DNA from: Verrucomicrobiota bacterium
GTDB lineage: Bacteria; Verrucomicrobiota; Kiritimatiellia; CAIQIC01; JAGNIJ01
Direction: 5' to 3'
DNA length: 44,790 nucleotides
Assembly: GCA_022704185.1 (NCBI GenBank)
Contig: JAKJGV010000002.1
Location: 17,767-62,556, forward strand
Shown here: positions 318 to 28,777 of the stretch, one piece after another
Layout of the letters: the number at the start of each line of letters is the position of its first letter
Numbering within the stretch: the stretch's first letter is position 1
The notes under the pieces: model-generated
Seen by the model: the letters and a program-made list of their open reading frames with translations, nothing else
Databases searched by the model: none
Told to the model about the DNA's origin: nothing
Made by a program: the position numbers and the translations under genes

Positions 318-331
318 CTACAAAATTGTAC
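318..331. promoter_or_regulatory. AT-rich palindrome upstream of glutamine synthetase (possible operator)
   Basis: CTACAAAATTGTAC has TACAA/TTGTA arms around AA. It matches, at 12 of 14 positions in reverse complement, the palindrome CTACATTTTTGTAG at 6402-6415 upstream of nadE. It lies about 160 nt before the start site predicted from the -24/-12 element at 456-471, a usual distance for an activator site. Function is inferred. Confidence 0.35.
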
Positions 332-348
332 TACACAAAAACAGTACA

Positions 349-385
349 CAACAATCTTGTTGCGGATACGGGGTGATGCTACAAT
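349..385 (+). promoter_or_regulatory. Possible sigma-70 promoter overlapping an inverted repeat, upstream of glutamine synthetase
   Basis: TTGTTG (357-362), a 17-nt spacer and TACAAT (380-385) form a good -35/-10 pair. The -35 box is the right arm of a perfect 6-bp inverted repeat, CAACAA-TC-TTGTTG (349-362), so a protein bound there would compete with or assist polymerase. The leader to the gene at 585 would be about 190 nt. Confidence 0.4.
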
Positions 386-455: not shown

Positions 456-471
456 TGGCACGGAGACTGCT
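456..471 (+). promoter_or_regulatory. Candidate sigma-54 (-24/-12) promoter of glutamine synthetase
   Basis: TGGCACG-GAGA-CTGCT matches the family consensus TGGCACG-N4-TTGCW at all but one defined position. It has the required 10 nt between the GG (457-458) and GC (469-470) doublets. Transcription would start near 482, leaving a leader of about 100 nt. Glutamine synthetase is a classic sigma-54 target, and rpoN plus a NifA-like activator are encoded in this window. Confidence 0.6.
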
Positions 472-584
472 GAACATAGCGGCATGGAAACATAGAGGTC
501 TCTTGAGCGAGGGCGTGTTGCTTTTGCGGGGAGACCATGTAAAAGCATAGGTCCGCACAAGGACGGCGGAAGAGGAGCCTGAAC

Positions 585-2759
585 ATGACTATTGCACGAC
601 ATGACGCCATCATGGCGGTAACGAACTACAAGCCGATCGAGAAACCCCTGGATTTCTCGAAGACCCTGGCCAAAGACCTTTTCGCCTCCAACGTGTTCAG
701 CGATGCCGTGATGAAGCAGCGCCTGCCGGAGAAGGTGTACAAGGCGATTCGCAAGACCATTGACCAAGGCGTCCCGCTCGACATGTCCTCGGCGGATATC
801 ATTGCCTCGGCGATGCGCGATTGGGCGATCGAGAAAGGCGCAACGCATTACGCGCACGTCTTCTATCCGCTGACCGGGCTGACCGCGGAAAAACACGACA
901 GCTTTCTCGACCCGGACGGCAAAGGCGGCGTGATCGCCGCGTTCTCCGGCAAGCAGCTCATCCAGGGCGAGCCGGACGCTTCGAGCTTCCCTTCCGGCGG
1001 CATTCGCGCCACGTTCGAGGCGCGCGGCTACACCGCGTGGGATGTCACCAGCCCCGCCTACATCCTCGAGAACCCGAACGGCACGACCCTCTGCATACCG
1101 ACCGCGTTCTGTTCCTGGACCGGCGAGGCGCTGGACAAGAAGACCCCGCTGCTCCGCTCGATGCAGGCGCTGAACGCGCAGGCGCAGCGCATGCTCACGC
1201 TTTTCGGGCAGAAGAACCCGGACCTGGTCTGGTCCACCGCGGGCTGCGAGCAGGAGTATTTCCTCATCGACCGCAACTTCTTCTTCGCGCGGCCGGACCT
1301 GATCAACGCGGGCCGCACGCTGTTCGGCGCGAAACCGCCGAAGGGCCAGGAGATGGAAGACCAGTACTTCGGCGCGATTCCCGAACGCGTGCTGGCGTGC
1401 ATGCTCGAAACGGAGCGCGAACTCTACAAGCTCGGCGTCCCGGTCAAGACCCGCCACAACGAGGTGGCGCCCGCGCAGTATGAAATCGCGCCGGTCTTCG
1501 AGAACGCCAACCTGGCGACCGACCACCAGTACATGACGATGGTCACGCTCACGCGCGTCGCCCAGAAGTACGGGATGTCCTGCCTGTTGCACGAGAAGCC
1601 GTTCGCCGGCATCAACGGCTCGGGCAAGCACCTGAACTGGTCGCTGGGCACCAAGGATGCGAACCTACTGTCGCCCGGTGACACGCCGCACAGCAACGCG
1701 CAGTTCCTCGTGTTCTGCGCCGCGGTCATCCGCGCGGTGCACAAGCACGGCGACCTGTTGCGCGGGGCCGTCGCGCATGCGGGCAATGATCACCGCCTCG
1801 GCGCGAACGAAGCGCCGCCCGCGATCATCTCCATGTTCCTGGGCGACCAGCTCACCGACGTGTTCGAGCAGATCGCCAAGGGCGGAGCCAGCAAGTCGAA
1901 ACAAGCCGGCATCCTGACCGTTGGCGTGGATACCCTCCCGCCGCTTCCCAAGGACGCCGGCGACCGCAACCGTACGAGCCCGTTCGCCTTCACCGGCAAC
2001 AAGTTCGAATTCCGCGCGGTCGGCTCGAGCCAGTCCGTTTCAGGCCCGCTGGTGATCCTGAACACCATCGTCGCCGAATCGCTCGACTTCATCGCCACGG
2101 AGATCGAGGCGAAGACGAAGGGCGATCTGTCCAAGCTGAACGGCGCCGTCCAGGAAGTGCTCCAGCAGATCATGAACGAGCACGGCGCGATCATCTTCAA
2201 CGGGGACAACTACAGCGAGGCGTGGCACAAGGAGGCCGAGAAGCGCGGCCTGCCGAACTTCCGCAACACGGTGGACGCCATTCACGGGATGGATACGGAC
2301 GAGAACGCCGAACTCTTCGAGAAGTACAACGTGCTGACGAAGCGCGAGTTCAAGAGCCGCAACGAGATCTACCTCGAGAAGTACGTCAAGGAAGTGAACA
2401 TCGAGAGCCGGCTCACGCTCCGCATCGCGAAGACGCTGATCTTCCCGGCGGCGATCCTCTACCAGGGCCAGCTCTCGCAGACTTCGCTCAACCTGAAGTC
2501 GCTGGGCAAGGACCACTGCACGACCGTGCTCGACGAGCTGAACGAGCTCGTCGCCAAGCTGCAGGGCGCCATGGCCAAACTCGACAGCGCAATCAACCAC
2601 GAATCGAAGGGCGGACTGCTCGCGCACGCGAAACACATGCGCGACGAAGTCATCCCCGCCATGAACAGCGTCCGCCAGATCTCCGACAAGATCGAGGGCA
2701 TCGTGTCCGACGACCTCTGGCCTCTCCCGACGTACCAGGAGATGCTGTTCATCAAGTAA
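585..2759 (+). CDS. glnN: Glutamine synthetase type III
   Basis: Converts glutamate, ammonia and ATP to glutamine in the cytoplasm. The 724-residue product matches the length of type III enzymes (about 700-730), which differ from the roughly 470-residue GlnA type I. Type III features visible are [15 protein letters not shown] around residue 300, [14 protein letters not shown] around 345, and the N-terminal block DVFASNVF-like ([19 protein letters not shown]). The ATG at 585 has AGGAG seven nt upstream; an in-frame ATG at 612 is a weaker alternative. It is a single-gene unit, with a 12-bp terminator following the stop by about 25 nt. Regulation is suggested by a near-consensus -24/-12 site at 456-471, a sigma-70-like pair at 357-385 and two palindromes. 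No PII or ammonium transporter gene is in the window. The family is clear. Confidence 0.96.
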
Positions 2760-3106: not shown

Positions 3107-3231
3107 GCATTCGGCTAATGCGGCTAGAGCAATGCCTGTTGGGGCTCATAGAGGGCGGCAACTTCTAGCTTGTGGGGCTTGCCCGCCGGCGGGTACGCTT
3201 ATGTCGGCATTCCGTCTTGCATGAAGGAGGG

Positions 3232-3250
3232 TTTTCCAATGCCTGGAAAA
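3232..3250. repeat. TTTTCCA-ATGCC-TGGAAAA palindrome enclosing the porin start codon
   Basis: Seven-bp arms TTTTCCA/TGGAAAA flank the loop ATGCC, whose ATG (3239) is the best start of the porin gene. The element recurs at 37659-37676 with the same loop, and as a half copy (AATGCCTGGA) near 37614-37624. In mRNA it would form a hairpin just after the ribosome-binding site. Confidence 0.7.
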
Positions 3251-4480
3251 ACGCGCCGGCCGATATCCAACCCCTGGAAACTCACCGTTCTGTTACTCGC
3301 GGCGTGCGCCGGCTTGGCCACCGCGGAACCCCTGTCTCTTCTCAACACCCCCTTCATCACGAACACCACGCTCAAGCTTCACGCGCGCGGCTACTACCTG
3401 CACCGCCACTTCGACACGCCGCAAACGCAGGAAACGCTGGCGCTGGGCGGCTGGGTCGACCTGGAGAGCGGCGAGTGGCATGGCCTGAGCTTCGGGCTGA
3501 CCCCCTATACATCCCAACGGGGTGCGGGCGCGGACGATCGAGACGGCGGCGGGCTTCTGCGAACCGGCCAGAAGGGCTACACCGTGCTGGGACAGGCTTA
3601 TGCGCGATGGCGCGGGCGGGATTCGGAGATCACGCTCCACCGGCAAATCCTTGATACGCCCATGCTGAATTCCTTCGACGTGAAAATGACGCCGATCACC
3701 TTCGAGGCCTACACGCTGGAGAACCGATCGTTCACCAACCTGGCGCTGACCCTTTCGCAGGTCGAGAAGATCAAGCCGTGGTCCGCCACTTCTTTCCACA
3801 GCCTGAGCGAGGCCGCCGGCTTCGCCGGCACCGATGACGGAATGACGCTGGGCGGAGCGGTCTGGACCACAGAGCCGCTCACCGTGCAGGTCTGGGAATA
3901 TTACGCGCACAACCTGGCGAACAGCGTGTACGCGCAGGCGGACGCCCGATGGCCGCGCACGGAAAGCATTACGTGGTTGCTTTCCGCTCAAGGCCTGCAC
4001 CAGCAGGATGTCGGCGCGGCGTATGCGGGCGAGTTTCAGACCGGCATGGGCGGACTCCTCGGCAGCGTCATCTGGAACGGGTTCACCCTGACAATGGGCG
4101 GCACCATTACGGATCACGGGGCGGACATCTACAATCCGTGGGCATCCTATCCGGGCTACACCTCGCTGATGGAAGAGGACTGCAATGTCGCCGGCGAAAA
4201 AGCCTGGATGGTGGGCGTGGCCTACGACTTTGCCACCGTGGGGCTGAACGGGCTGAGCGCTTTCATGAATCATTCGGAATCCTGGACCGACGAGTCGCGG
4301 GGGCTTTCCGACCCCGAGCAGGTCGAGGTGGATTTCACCGTGGATTTCAAACCCCGCGGGTGGTGGCAAGGCTTGAGCCTGCGCGCGCGGGCGGCGCTGG
4401 TGCGCAATTCCCTTTCCTTGAAGGGTACGGATTATGAGGACTTCAGGATCATCATGAATTACGAACGCGCGTTGTTCTAA
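3239..4480 (+). CDS. Outer-membrane porin, OprD-like
   Basis: A 413-residue protein with a Sec signal peptide (basic start MPGKTRR, hydrophobic LTVLLLAACAGLATA, cleavage near ATA|EP). The rest is rich in alternating polar/hydrophobic strands with aromatic girdles, and it ends in ...NYERALF, the terminal Phe expected for beta-barrel insertion. The segments DVKMTPITFEAYTLEN and DYEDFRIIMNYE resemble OprD-family porins, which take up small peptides or amino acids; substrate here is inferred. The ATG at 3239 follows AAGGAGG (3224-3230) by 8 nt, much better than the upstream in-frame starts at 3170 and 3221. The start codon lies in the loop of a dispersed palindrome. The stop is 20 nt before the C69 peptidase gene, indicating an operon. 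Confidence 0.75.
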   Translation: MPGKTRRPISNPWKLTVLLLAACAGLATAEPLSLLNTPFITNTTLKLHARGYYLHRHFDTPQTQETLALGGWVDLESGEWHGLSFGLTPYTSQRGAGADDRDGGGLLRTGQKGYTVLGQAYARWRGRDSEITLHRQILDTPMLNSFDVKMTPITFEAYTLENRSFTNLALTLSQVEKIKPWSATSFHSLSEAAGFAGTDDGMTLGGAVWTTEPLTVQVWEYYAHNLANSVYAQADARWPRTESITWLLSAQGLHQQDVGAAYAGEFQTGMGGLLGSVIWNGFTLTMGGTITDHGADIYNPWASYPGYTSLMEEDCNVAGEKAWMVGVAYDFATVGLNGLSAFMNHSESWTDESRGLSDPEQVEVDFTVDFKPRGWWQGLSLRARAALVRNSLSLKGTDYEDFRIIMNYERALF

Positions 4481-4500
4481 CCGAAAAAGGAAGGAAGACC

Positions 4501-6240
4501 ATGAATCGCCCACTCCTGATTATTGCAGCGGCTGTCACGCTCGTCGCCCTGCCGCCGGCTTTCGCCTGCACAACCATCCTGGTCGGCAAGGACGCGTCCG
4601 CCGACGGATCCGTCATGGTCTCTCATTCCGATGACGGGCTGGGCGACGGACGGCTCATCTACGTTCCGGCCATGGATCACCCGGCCGGGGCCTTGCGCCC
4701 GGTGTTCTACGCGCATTGCGCGTTGGGCTATCTTCCGCAATGGGGCGCAAATGAGAGCCATCGCATCGTGACCGGAGACCGCGGTCCGGGCTACAACACG
4801 CCCGGCGATCCTCCGAGCGTGCCGATCGGCCACATTCCGCAGGTAGCGCACACCTATGCCTACTTCGACGCGAACTACGGCCTCGTGAACGAGCACCAGT
4901 TATCCATCGGCGAATGCACCGATCTTGCCAAGGTTCATCCGTTGCCCGAACCGGGCAAGCGCATCTTCTATTCCGCCGAGCTTTCCCGCGTGGCCCTGGA
5001 ACGATGCAAGACGGCCCGCGAGGCGGTCCAACTCATGGGCGAGCTGATTGACAAGTACGGCTACTACGCAACCGGCGAAACCCTGCTGGTGGCCGATCCG
5101 AAGGAAGGCTGGGTTTTTGAGATGTGCGGCTATGACATGGACGGAACCGACGGCGTTTGGGTGGCCCAGCGTGTGCCCGACGACGAGGTTTTTGCCGCGG
5201 CAAACCAGTTCCGCATCCGGGATATCCGCGAGAACGCCGCGGATATGATGTATTCAAAAAACATTTTCGACGTGGCGAAGAAAAAGGGCTGGTGGAAACC
5301 CGAGGACGGCCCGCTCGACTGGACCTCCGTGTACGGCAACGGCGAGTTTCATCATCCCTACTACTCCCTGCGCCGCGTGTGGCGCGCGCAGTCGCTGCTG
5401 GCGCCCTCTCTCAATCTCTCCCCCTGGGTGGACGGGCCTTACACCCGCGCATACCCGTTCTCCTTCAAACCGGATGCCAAAGTATCGGTCGAAAACATCT
5501 TTACGGTCCATCGCGACAACTATGAAGGCACCGAGTTCGATCTCACGCAGGGGCTGGCCGCCGGTCCATTCGGATGTCCCAACCGCTTTGAAGGCCAGGC
5601 CGAAGCCGTGGCCGACCAGGAGGGGCGCCTGACTCCGCTCAAGGGGGAATTCGAGCGCCCGCTGAACATCTATCGCTGTGTCTATGCCTACGTCATCCAG
5701 GCACGCAGTTGGCTGCCCGACGCCATCGGTGGACTGATCTGGTACGGCCCCGACCGCCCGGCCACCGCCGTACTGATGCCGTTCTATGCCGGCAATACCG
5801 ACCTGCCCAAGCCCATCCAAACGGCCGACATCCTCCGGTTCGATCGCAACAGCATGTGGACCGCGTTCAACTTCGTCGCGAACTACGCCATGCTCAAGTA
5901 CTCCTACATGATCAAGGACATCCAGACCGTGCGCGACCGTTTTGAAGCGCAGGCCTTCGGCACGCAAAGCGACCGGGAAGCCAAGGCGCTCGAGCTCTGG
6001 AAGAAAGGCGATGAAGACGGCGCGCGCGCCCTGCTGACCCGCTACTGCGACGAGAACGCCAATGCCGTCCTCCGCGAATGGTGGAAACTGGCAGACCAGT
6101 TGTATCTCAAGTACAACGACGGCTACCTCAACACCAGGGATGGCCTTGCCCAATCCGTCTTCTATCCCGCCTGGTGGCTCAAGGAAGTCGGCTATGAAAA
6201 AGGCCCCACAAGCTACCAGAAACCCGCGGAAGAAAACTGA
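4501..6240 (+). CDS. Exported C69-family dipeptidase
   Basis: A 579-residue N-terminal-nucleophile hydrolase of peptidase family C69, acting on dipeptides or small amides. After a signal peptide (MNRPLLIIAAAVTLVALPPAFA) the mature protein starts at Cys23 in the family motif CTTILVGKDASADGSVM. Signal peptidase cleavage would directly expose the catalytic cysteine. Other family-like blocks are NEHQLSIGECT around residue 138 and the long C-terminal half with tyrosine-rich segments. AAGGAAGG just before ATG 4501 serves as ribosome-binding site. It sits 20 nt after an OprD-like porin, suggesting that the pair imports peptides and cleaves them in the periplasm. Two GC-rich hairpins follow. The family is confident; the substrate is unknown. 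Confidence 0.88.
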   Translation: MNRPLLIIAAAVTLVALPPAFACTTILVGKDASADGSVMVSHSDDGLGDGRLIYVPAMDHPAGALRPVFYAHCALGYLPQWGANESHRIVTGDRGPGYNTPGDPPSVPIGHIPQVAHTYAYFDANYGLVNEHQLSIGECTDLAKVHPLPEPGKRIFYSAELSRVALERCKTAREAVQLMGELIDKYGYYATGETLLVADPKEGWVFEMCGYDMDGTDGVWVAQRVPDDEVFAAANQFRIRDIRENAADMMYSKNIFDVAKKKGWWKPEDGPLDWTSVYGNGEFHHPYYSLRRVWRAQSLLAPSLNLSPWVDGPYTRAYPFSFKPDAKVSVENIFTVHRDNYEGTEFDLTQGLAAGPFGCPNRFEGQAEAVADQEGRLTPLKGEFERPLNIYRCVYAYVIQARSWLPDAIGGLIWYGPDRPATAVLMPFYAGNTDLPKPIQTADILRFDRNSMWTAFNFVANYAMLKYSYMIKDIQTVRDRFEAQAFGTQSDREAKALELWKKGDEDGARALLTRYCDENANAVLREWWKLADQLYLKYNDGYLNTRDGLAQSVFYPAWWLKEVGYEKGPTSYQKPAEEN

Positions 6241-6346: not shown

Positions 6347-6379
6347 CCTGGGTGAGGGGTGAACTTCCCGCGGAAAATG

Positions 6380-6408
6380 TTGTAGCACACTCCCCCGAAT
6401 GCTACATT
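6380..6408 (+). promoter_or_regulatory. Candidate nadE promoter inside an inverted repeat
   Basis: TTGTAG (6380-6385), a 17-nt spacer and TACATT (6403-6408) give a -35/-10 pair. A 7-bp inverted repeat TGTAGCA (6381-6387) / TGCTACA (6400-6406) covers both boxes, so a dimeric regulator bound there would occlude polymerase. The start codon at 6424 would leave a very short leader. Confidence 0.45.
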
Positions 6409-6415
6409 TTTGTAG
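6402..6415. promoter_or_regulatory. Palindrome CTACATTTTTGTAG before nadE (possible operator)
   Basis: Arms CTACA/TGTAG surround TTTT. The reverse complement differs at two positions from the palindrome at 318-331 upstream of glutamine synthetase. It overlaps the candidate -10 box and ends 8 nt before the nadE start, a position typical for a repressor. Function is inferred. Confidence 0.35.
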
Positions 6416-6423
6416 GAACACCC

Positions 6424-8098
6424 ATGATTGCGGCATTGGTTCAGATCAACACGACCGTTGGCGATCTCGCGGGCAACGCCGCGCGCATCGTTGAGCAAGC
6501 GGCGCGCGCGGCCGAAGCCGGCGCGCAACTGATCGTCTTCCCTGAACTGGCCCTCTCGGGGTACCCGCCCGAGGATTTGGTGCTGAAGCGGCATTTTCTC
6601 CGCGCGTGCGAGCAACAGTTGGAGGAACTGGCCGGGAAACTACCGCGCGAAGCGCTGGTGCTCGTCGGCTGCCCGCGCGAAATCGCTGGCCACCCGGCCA
6701 ACACGGCTGTCGCGTTCGCGTCAGGGAAGATCGCCGGCTGCTACCGCAAGATGGCCCTGCCGAACTACGGAGTCTTCGACGAAAAGCGCGTCTTCACTGC
6801 GGGCGAGAAACCGATGATCGTGCAGGTCAACGGCATGAGGCTCGGCATTCACATCTGCGAGGATTCGTGGAACAGCGCTTCTCCGGCCGCCACGCTCCTT
6901 GCGAACACGGGGCTGAGCGCCCTCATCAACCTGTCCGCCTCGCCATACCACCGCGGCAAGTTGAGCCTGCGCGAGGAGACCCTGCGCGCGATGGCCGCCC
7001 GCATCCGGGCACCCCTGCTCTACTGCAACCTCGTCGGCGGACAGGACGAACTGGTCTTCGACGGCGCCAGCCTCGTGCTCGATCCGGCCCGAGGTCCCGT
7101 CGCACGCGCGCGATCCTTCGAGGAAGACGCGTTGTTTTTCTCCCTGCCGGAACCCGGTGAATCCTCCCGCGGCGCGAAAAGCGCACAGGATGTCGAGTGG
7201 ATCATCGCCGACCTCCCGGCCGGCCGGACGAAATCCGTCAAACCCCGCATCGAACCCGCGCTCGACGACCTCGCCGAGGTGTATTCCGCGCTGAAGCTGG
7301 GCGTTCGCGATTACGTGGAGAAGAACGGGTTCGCCAAGGTGGTCGTCGCACTCAGCGGCGGCATTGATTCCGCGCTCGTCGCGACGATCGCCGTGGACGC
7401 GCTGGGGAAGGACCGCGTCGCGGGCGTAACGATGCCCTCCCCGTACTCCTCCGGCGGCACGATCGCCGATGCCGGGCTGCTCGCGAAAAATTTCGGCATC
7501 GAATTCCACACTGTGCCGATCCGCGGGCTGTTCGAAACCTATCTCGCCGAACTGCAGCCGCTGTGGCCCGACCGCGCGCCGGACATCACCGAGGAGAACC
7601 TGCAGGCGCGTATCCGCGGGAACATCATCATGGCGCTCTCCAACAAGTTCGGCTGGCTCGTGCTGACGACCGGCAACAAGAGCGAGCTCGCCACCGGCTA
7701 CTGCACGCTCTACGGCGACATGGTCGGCGGTTTCGCGGTGATCAAGGACGTTCCGAAAACGCTGGTCTTCGAGCTCGCCCGCTGGCGGAATGCCCGGGGC
7801 GGCGTGGTCATCCCCCCCTCCACCATCGAGCGCCCGCCGTCGGCGGAATTGCGGCCGGACCAGAAGGATAGCGACACCCTGCCGCCGTATGACGTGCTCG
7901 ACGCGATCCTGGAACGCTACATCGAGCAGGACCTGGGCGTGGACGAGATCACCGCGCAGGGATTCGACCCGGCCGTTGTGCGGAAGGTGATCCGCATGGC
8001 CGACGGTAGCGAGTACAAGCGCCGGCAGGGCGCGCCGGGCATCAAGATCACCCCAAAAGCATTCGGGAGGGATCGGCGCATGCCGATCACAAATCGCT

Positions 8099-8109
<11 letters not shown>
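6424..8109 (+). CDS. nadE: Glutamine-dependent NAD+ synthetase
   Basis: Catalyses the last step of NAD+ synthesis: it amidates deamido-NAD+ using ammonia released from glutamine. The 561-residue protein has an N-terminal nitrilase-type glutaminase domain with the triad Glu41 ([14 protein letters not shown]), Lys109 ([14 protein letters not shown]) and Cys145 (HICEDSW). The C-terminal synthetase domain has the P-loop SGGIDSA at about 311-317 and a [12 protein letters not shown] segment. I chose ATG 6424 because [18 protein letters not shown] is the conserved start; the upstream in-frame ATG at 6352 adds 24 residues unlike the family. AGGA lies seven nt upstream. The stop overlaps the next gene, a sigma-54 activator, by 11 nt, so the two are translationally coupled. 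Confidence 0.95.
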
Positions 8110-9664
<1,555 letters not shown>

Positions 9665-27287: not shown

Positions 27288-27346
27288 TTGCCCTTGAGAC
27301 CGCGCGTCCGCAGGGGTATCGTTTATGGTGGCCCGGAGGTTTGAAC

Positions 27347-28777
27347 GTGCCCGGACAGTACCTTGCCCAGACGCAGCAGCAACGGCTCCAGATGGTGCTG
27401 GCGCCCCAGTTGCGCCAATCGCTGGAACTGCTGCAAGTCACTGCGCTGGAACTGCGTACGCTGGTCCAGGAGGAGCTGCAGCAGAATCCGACGATCGAGG
27501 AAGTCCCGCCCGCGACTGCCCAGGTCGAGGTGGAGCCCGGCAGCGGGGAGGCGGAAAGCAATGCCGAGCTGGATTTCAAGGAGCAGTTCGAGGTGCTCTC
27601 CCGCCTGGACGACGAGTGGCGCGAGTATTTCCGGCAGAGCCAGAGCTTCCAGCCCCACACGGCGGACGATGCCGCGAAAAGGCAATTCTTCTTCGACTCT
27701 CTCACCCAGCCCGAGTCGCTGCAGGAACATCTCCTCGACCAGCTCAAGCTGGCCGGGTTGAGCAGCGAGGAGCGCGTGATCGCCGAGTTGCTGATCGGCA
27801 GCATTAATGACGAAGGATTTCTTACCGTCAGTCTTGAAGAGTTGTCTCACTCGACCGGCGCGCAGCCTGCCCATCTCGAGAAGCTGCTCAAGCTGATCCA
27901 GGAGTTCGACCCGATCGGCGTGGGCGCCCGCGACCTCAAGGAGTGCCTGCTTCTGCAATTGCGCCGCCTCGGCAAGGAGGAATCGCTAGCCGCTTTGATC
28001 GTTCGGGGTCATCTTGAATCGCTCGGCGCGCGGAAGTATCCAGCCATCGCGAAGGCGCTCAAGATCGGCGTCGAGGAGGTGCAGCAGGCGGCGCAGTTCA
28101 TTGCCACGCTGGAACCCCGGCCGGGACGGATGTTCACTCCGGAGCAACCCACGTACGTACTGCCCGAGGTGCAGGTGCAGAAAACCGGCGACAAATACAT
28201 CGTCGTGATGAACCGGGAGCACATCCCGCACGTCTTCATCAGCAAGCACTATCGGACGCTCATGGAGGATCCCCACACGACGCCCGAAGTGAAGTCTTAC
28301 ATCCGCGACAAGATCCGGTCCGGGATGTTGTTGATCAAGAGCATTCAGCAGCGGCAGCAGACCATTCGCCGGATCGCGGAAGAGATTGTGCGCGTGCAGC
28401 GCGAGTTTCTCGAGCATGGTGTTTCGCATTTGAAACCTCTGACCATGGTCGAGATCGCGTCCATCCTCGGCATCCACGAGACGACGGTCAGTCGCGCGAT
28501 CGCGAACAAGTACATGCAGACCCCGCGCGGCATGTTCGAGATGAAGTATTTCTTCACGCCGGGTCTCAAGACGTCCGACGGCAGCGAGGTGTCCAACAAG
28601 ACCATTAAAGATGTCATCGCGCAGATGGTCGCCGAAGAGGATCCCGCGGCTCCCTTGTCGGACCAGGAGATGGTGGCCAAGCTGAAGGAGCGCGGGATCA
28701 CCGTCGCGCGGCGAACGATCGCCAAGTACCGCGACGCGCTGCACATCCTGCCTTCGCACCTCCGGAAAACGTACTGA
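27347..28777 (+). CDS. rpoN: RNA polymerase sigma-54 factor
   Basis: Directs polymerase to -24/-12 promoters that need AAA+ activators. The 476-residue protein has the glutamine-rich region I (YLAQTQQQRLQMVLAPQLRQSLELLQ), an acidic region II (about 50-110) and the core-binding and helix-turn-helix region (MVEIASILGIHETTVSRAIANKYMQTPRG around 365-395). The RpoN box ARRTIAKYRDALHI is near the C-terminus. GTG 27347 has GGAGG seven nt upstream; the TTG at 27341 is too close to it. A sigma-54-type promoter precedes the gene. Downstream, five 18-nt repeats begin directly after the stop. Its partner activator here is the NifA-like protein at 8099-9664. Confidence 0.96.
   Translation: MPGQYLAQTQQQRLQMVLAPQLRQSLELLQVTALELRTLVQEELQQNPTIEEVPPATAQVEVEPGSGEAESNAELDFKEQFEVLSRLDDEWREYFRQSQSFQPHTADDAAKRQFFFDSLTQPESLQEHLLDQLKLAGLSSEERVIAELLIGSINDEGFLTVSLEELSHSTGAQPAHLEKLLKLIQEFDPIGVGARDLKECLLLQLRRLGKEESLAALIVRGHLESLGARKYPAIAKALKIGVEEVQQAAQFIATLEPRPGRMFTPEQPTYVLPEVQVQKTGDKYIVVMNREHIPHVFISKHYRTLMEDPHTTPEVKSYIRDKIRSGMLLIKSIQQRQQTIRRIAEEIVRVQREFLEHGVSHLKPLTMVEIASILGIHETTVSRAIANKYMQTPRGMFEMKYFFTPGLKTSDGSEVSNKTIKDVIAQMVAEEDPAAPLSDQEMVAKLKERGITVARRTIAKYRDALHILPSHLRKTY

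Follow-up and report, generated by a model that had tools for sequence, protein, structure and literature searches.

The type III glutamine synthetase gene glnN of this Kiritimatiellia bacterium is preceded by a three-part control unit, two dyads followed by a -24/-12 promoter, and the same unit stands before amtB-glnK. The gene for a GAF-AAA+-Fis activator lies in the neighbourhood, and in two lineages of the class the promoter has gone where the activator is damaged or absent. Judged from sequence, glnN is very probably transcribed from a sigma-54 promoter, with the dyads bound by the activator encoded at 8099-9664 and amtB-glnK activated alongside it on nitrogen shortage. The features concerned are given below, in coordinates of the window (the whole stretch of DNA analysed, 44,790 nucleotides).

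319-330, plus strand: putative distal activator dyad UAS1, TACAAAATTGTA; conserved, 31 bp from UAS2 in most relatives
350-361, plus strand: putative proximal activator dyad UAS2, AACAATCTTGTT; conserved, centre 100 bp before the T of the -24 element
456-471, plus strand: -24/-12 sigma-54 promoter, TGGCACGGAGACTGCT; conserved at 22 of 29 relatives' glnN loci
482-584, plus strand: predicted 5' leader of the glnN mRNA, placed from the promoter
585-2759, plus strand: glnN, type III glutamine synthetase, the target gene (PF12437, PF00120 and PF18318 over cut-off)
6352-8109, plus strand: nadE, NAD synthetase of the glutamine-dependent type (PF02540, PF00795); overlaps the start of the activator gene
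8099-9664, plus strand: GAF-AAA+-Fis sigma-54 activator of the NifA/AnfA family, the proposed regulator (from Pfam, TIGR01817 and linkage)
8948-8965, plus strand: codons of the GAFTGA sigma-54 contact loop, activator residues 284-289 (from the translation)
27341-28777, plus strand: rpoN, sigma-54 (PF00309, PF04963, PF04552; TIGR02395 over cut-off)

The promoter and paired dyads upstream of glnN

The glnN product carries the GSIII N-terminal domain (E 4e-77) and C-terminal domain on either side of the catalytic domain, the arrangement of a type III enzyme. It scored under the cut-off of NCBIfam TIGR03105, also named type III, which appears to be a different family. A minus-strand gene starts near 290 and runs off the left edge of the window, separated from glnN by a short intergenic region. 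Downstream, an OprD-like porin and a C69 peptidase (3170-6240) lie between glnN and the nadE-activator pair. The corresponding gap between glnN and activator in the relative G001 has room for just about one gene, and the porin and peptidase are likely an insertion.

A sequence-only reading of this DNA had proposed a near-perfect sigma-54 promoter with exact GG-N10-GC spacing about 115 nt before glnN. The analysis bears this out: the element at 456-471 has a single mismatch to TGGCACG-N4-TTGCW (score 20 of 21), GG at 457-458 and GC at 469-470 with ten nucleotides between, and ends 113 nt before the ATG at 585. No other site in the window reaches 20 of 21 on the consensus scale; random sequence of the window's dinucleotide make-up is expected to give 0.15 such sites per strand. 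Across the genome the -24/-12 pattern with one mismatch was not enriched over a reversed control, so that counts of the single pattern are uninformative. We take the significance of 456-471 to stem from its position and conservation and not from the bare pattern match. The consensus-like core, conservation at orthologous genes and rpoN in the genome mark it, on the sequence evidence, as a genuine sigma-54 promoter for glnN. The kind of promoter is itself already known, a standard sigma-54 promoter with enhancer sites. Placed 12 nt after the GC, the transcription start is predicted near 482.

The predicted leader (482-584) folds better than shuffled sequences (z -2.9), and an GTGTTGCTTTTG...GTAAAAGC element in the leader region is common to the window, G001 and G003. 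No Rfam family matched the leader, and the one known RNA element in the window was a tRNA elsewhere. Control of glnN at the level of the leader may be possible.

The earlier reading had also pointed to palindromes at enhancer distance, 318-331 and 349-362. These proved to be true dyads, paired and at a distance conserved among relatives. The fuller palindromes are CTACAAAATTGTAC (318-331) and CAACAATCTTGTTG (349-362), and the dyad centres are exactly 31 bp apart, at about -157 and -126 if transcription starts 12 nt after the GC. The class consensus, present twice, is TACA-N4-TGTA. The distal dyad of the window is an exact fit to TAC-N6-GTA; the proximal dyad reads AAC-N6-GTT and, at 17 of 20, is degenerate.

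Type III glutamine synthetase genes were gathered from relatives, from the same family out to the same class. A GG-N10-GC site scoring at least 18.5 was found in 22 of the 29 relatives' glnN loci (23 of 30 counting the window), 69-195 nt before the matched glnN start. Conservation of the -24/-12 element among close relatives had been set beforehand as a point on which the promoter call could fall, and it reaches well beyond the family. The dyad pair was present upstream in 22 of the 23 promoter-bearing loci at 31 bp (30 bp in family f2) and in the remaining locus at 33 bp, although in some cases a single dyad is weak, at 15-17 of 20. The proximal dyad lies 94-109 bp from the -24 element in most loci and 97 bp in many; the distance is 85-86 bp in family f2 and 221 bp in one locus. 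In an alignment of 15 glnN upstream regions, 14 of 179 columns were invariant, all of them inside the two dyads and the promoter. Two loci, L025 and L026, had no good promoter site at glnN.

In the type III enzyme tree the glnN genes of family f2 (L027-L031) fall on a separate branch, yet they too have the dyad pair and promoter; the control unit thus persists where its enzyme gene seems to have been exchanged for another. Within the class members of that tree lies a named Kiritimatiellia genome (L032, G056); it has a site before glnN (E 2.1e-7), with a -12 element that by eye reads TGTT, and its activator, encoded on the contig that carries this site, is 76% identical.

The activator and its natural losses

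The window had been said to encode both sigma-54 and an activator with an intact GAFTGA loop, and both are there: rpoN at 27341-28777, and the protein of 8099-9664 with its motif at residue 284. The latter has the make-up of an enhancer-binding protein (PF00158, PF02954 and GAFTGA). It scored over the cut-off of the NifA model TIGR01817 (546.4 vs 528.85 bits) and under that of the ntrC model (357 vs 558.6 bits), and has no receiver domain. Its nearest solved chain is a Nif-specific regulatory protein, and its GAF domain matches the solved Nlh1 domain.

Control of nif genes was considered and rejected, there being no nifH in the source genome. Across 56 genomes nifH passed the cut-off in one, which is not the source genome (its assembly is 76% complete). 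In the relative that has it, G005, nifH carries a -24/-12 element but no TACA-N4-TGTA dyads. By sequence the activator belongs to the NifA family, yet two nif-specific features were not found with it, nif genes and the TGT-N10-ACA site.

Activator orthologs adjoin glnN or amtB in most relatives. They lie directly downstream of glnN in G006, G010, G014, G016, G017, G020, G023, G026 and G027; homologs are divergent from glnN in G008, G012, G021 and G030 and near it in G001-G003, G005, G031, G036 and G048. In G037 the ortholog stands just before amtB and is directly preceded by nadE, as in the window. Linkage, the family consensus and co-loss together suggest that the 8099-9664 protein probably regulates glnN through the dyads.

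The losses were seen in family f4. In G006 (L285, 2589-4082, minus strand) the activator has GAFPGA in place of GAFTGA; upstream of glnN both dyads are good, but a -24/-12 element is lacking. In G022 (L016, 3076-3999) a 308-residue remnant of the activator lies beside glnN: it has no GAF domain, no GAFTGA loop and altered Walker motifs, with identity of 38/51 in the HTH and 56/155 in the AAA+ core. Its dyads are perfect, but no -24/-12 element is left. In G018 and G019 linked activator, dyads and promoter are all absent. The enzyme tree pairs G006 with G019 and G022 with G018, a pattern that suggests two separate decays. A missing rpoN was rejected as the cause of promoter loss, since all four genomes retain the gene; AmtB was not detected in any of them.

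Both dyads and the promoter are present in the seven f4 genomes whose linked activator is intact and whose upstream DNA could be read. The exception, G026 (66% complete), has an adjacent activator with intact GAFTGA, yet the DNA read shows neither dyads nor a promoter; what lies upstream of its glnN looks like coding sequence. The split is 7/8 vs 0/4 (Fisher p 0.01 counting genomes, with two independent events behind the 0/4). Where an activator copy retains its HTH the dyads persist, and in two lineages without an intact activator the -24/-12 element has disappeared. This suggests that the degenerate activators of G006 and G022 have been reused as a sigma-70-type regulator or a repressor.

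Other genes behind the same unit and alternative readings

A sequence model, R1, was built from glnN regions only and run over the 56 genomes as the unbiased search. In the source genome it matched before amtB-glnK (C185:5413-5578, E 6.7e-9). Compared with an AmtB search, R1 sites preceded about 33 of 60 amtB copies, some of the sites being weak. Pfam identified an ammonium transporter and a PII protein at the amtB-type sites, with glutamate synthase next in line in G010. In G041, G044 and G032, R1 sites preceded glutamine synthetases with type I domains (the one in G044 is short), and no type III gene was detected in G041 or G044. These sites indicate a nitrogen-assimilation regulon of glnN, amtB-glnK and, in genomes lacking glnN, glnA. 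Further R1 sites lay before an operon of a porin and a periplasmic binding protein and before a circularly permuted ATP-grasp protein.

We also scanned by geometry, requiring both dyads at a spacing of 30 or 31 bp and a promoter 80-125 bp further on. In the 1.69 Mb of loci fetched, the scan returned 60 distinct sites, against none in the same amount of random sequence; in the window it returned exactly one. The way these loci were collected favours nitrogen genes, and the comparison measures specificity against random sequence only.

Several observations accompany these sites. The amtB-type sites (L213-L245) mostly have 30 bp between dyads and 107-111 bp to the -24 element; at sites of the glnN type the two distances are 31 bp and about 97 bp, and each geometry is conserved. 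The PII protein beside amtB of the source genome (L213, 3671-4009, minus strand; G000:C185) lacks a tyrosine at the position of Tyr51 (YRGADVEV), making the enteric uridylylation route unlikely. In G037 (L248), where no type III gene was detected, the row of nadE, activator and amtB has a weak dyad and TGGTACGGTAAATGCT before amtB. In three genomes an R1-type site precedes a winged-helix regulator (Trans_reg_C; L235, L243 and L246) in which no receiver domain was detected, possibly a second nitrogen regulator under dyad-promoter control.

The promoter and dyads could be real and another activator, such as an NtrC-group response regulator, could bind them while the GAF protein regulates something else. 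We regard this as unlikely. At least two further sigma-54 activators are indeed encoded in the source genome, each with a receiver domain, and yet another may be missing from its assembly at 76% completeness. However, neither of the two passed the ntrC or ntrX cut-off, and the GAF protein is the activator that is linked to glnN and amtB, whose family has a matching published site and whose broken copies go with promoter loss. In G041 strong sites (E 7.5e-7) occur and no full-length ortholog was detected, but that assembly is 88% complete and G054, of the same family, has the ortholog beside a type I glutamine synthetase. NtrC itself was rejected as the activator, as the three strongest sigma-54 activators in the source assembly all scored under the ntrC cut-off.

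That the dyads are operators of a repressor or sigma-70 regulator, with the -24/-12 element served by an activator binding elsewhere, is very improbable. In G006 and G022, where dyads stand without a -24/-12 element, they must serve some other mode; in intact relatives, by contrast, the distance from dyads to -24 is fixed at both glnN and amtB, and in G018 and G019, without a linked activator, the dyads are gone too. A chance resemblance at 456-471 in GC-rich DNA, as the frequency of one-mismatch matches in the reversed control might suggest, has a negligible probability and was rejected on conservation over 23 loci, the fixed geometry with two dyads and the empty null scans.

Proposed mechanism and relation to known systems

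The favoured reading remains activation by the GAF protein from the paired dyads. On nitrogen shortage its GAF domain, the likely sensor, would release the AAA+ domain, alone or with the PII protein of the amtB operon. Two activator dimers would then occupy the tandem dyads at 319-330 and 350-361; a spacing of 31 bp is about three helical turns and would put both dyads on one face of the DNA. The bound dimers would assemble into an AAA+ ring, which would contact sigma-54 at 456-471, about 100 bp away, through GAFTGA by DNA looping. Open-complex formation by sigma-54 RNA polymerase would lead to transcription of glnN. The same activator would switch on amtB-glnK, so that ammonium uptake and assimilation would rise together.

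In enterobacteria, NtrC and sigma-54 act through paired enhancer sites at glnA and glnK-amtB. The system proposed here would do the same job with the same layout at glutamine synthetase and amtB-glnK; it differs in having a type III instead of a type I enzyme, a GAF domain and no receiver, and a different site. Cyanobacterial glnN is controlled by NtcA, a CRP-family activator of sigma-70-type promoters. The likeness is nitrogen control of a type III glutamine synthetase, but sigma-54 has no part in it.

The closest published site is that of AnfA of R. capsulatus, determined experimentally as a pair of TAC-N6-GTA dyads upstream of a sigma-54 promoter; full activation requires both dyads (PMC7294313). 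The NifA site is TGT-N10-ACA, and among the NifA-family sites quoted in that paper TACA-N4-TGTA fits that of AnfA and not that of NifA (PMC7294313). AnfA and VnfA, activators of alternative nitrogenases in Rhodobacter capsulatus and Azotobacter vinelandii, share the GAF-AAA+-HTH order and the two-dyad sigma-54 layout. Their targets are nitrogenase genes, whereas here they are glutamine synthetase and ammonium transporter genes and nifH is absent in 55 of 56 genomes. NifA is alike in domain order and in the TIGR01817 score over cut-off, but serves nif genes, none of which were found here, from its own site. Nlh1 and Nlh2 of Aquifex aeolicus are NifA-like GAF proteins that activate sigma-54; in the parts of that paper available to us the likeness to the 8099-9664 protein is at the protein level only, and no binding site or target genes were found there (PMC9866876).

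A 2025 survey of sigma-54 regulons across phyla places control of glutamine synthetase (COG0174) primarily in Pseudomonadota, and the terms glnN and Kiritimat are absent from its main text (PMC12316311). In a search that left most subscription journals outside, we found no paper that connects sigma-54 or a NifA-like activator with type III glutamine synthetase. A NifA/AnfA-type activator that would run nitrogen assimilation with such an enzyme was described in none of the papers searched.

Beyond the class the signs are weaker. In Fibrobacter (L092, L094, L097, L101) a gene for a 47-52% identical GAF-type activator is divergent from glnN, and two of the loci read show by eye a dyad pair about 29 bp apart with no obvious -24/-12 element. 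In a Margulisbacteria genome glnN is preceded by a dyad pair at 31 bp, and the activator encoded there is 55% identical. Only tentatively, and with the odds somewhat against it, do we suggest that NifA-family activators are a widespread nitrogen-assimilation switch in non-fixers (in this class and, on the weaker signs, in Fibrobacter, Margulisbacteria and others), controlling the resident glutamine synthetase, AmtB and PII. If so, nitrogenase control would be one specialised branch of the NifA family and not its defining role.

For a large group represented chiefly by metagenome-assembled genomes, the analysis proposes a regulator of type III glutamine synthetase, its site and its regulon. The label NifA from a curated model is not evidence of nitrogen fixation; such proteins here probably serve nitrogen assimilation. 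The dyad-dyad-promoter pattern is specific enough for much of the nitrogen regulon to be read from DNA, and the lineages with a broken activator give a natural setting in which to test how such proteins decay or are put to new use.
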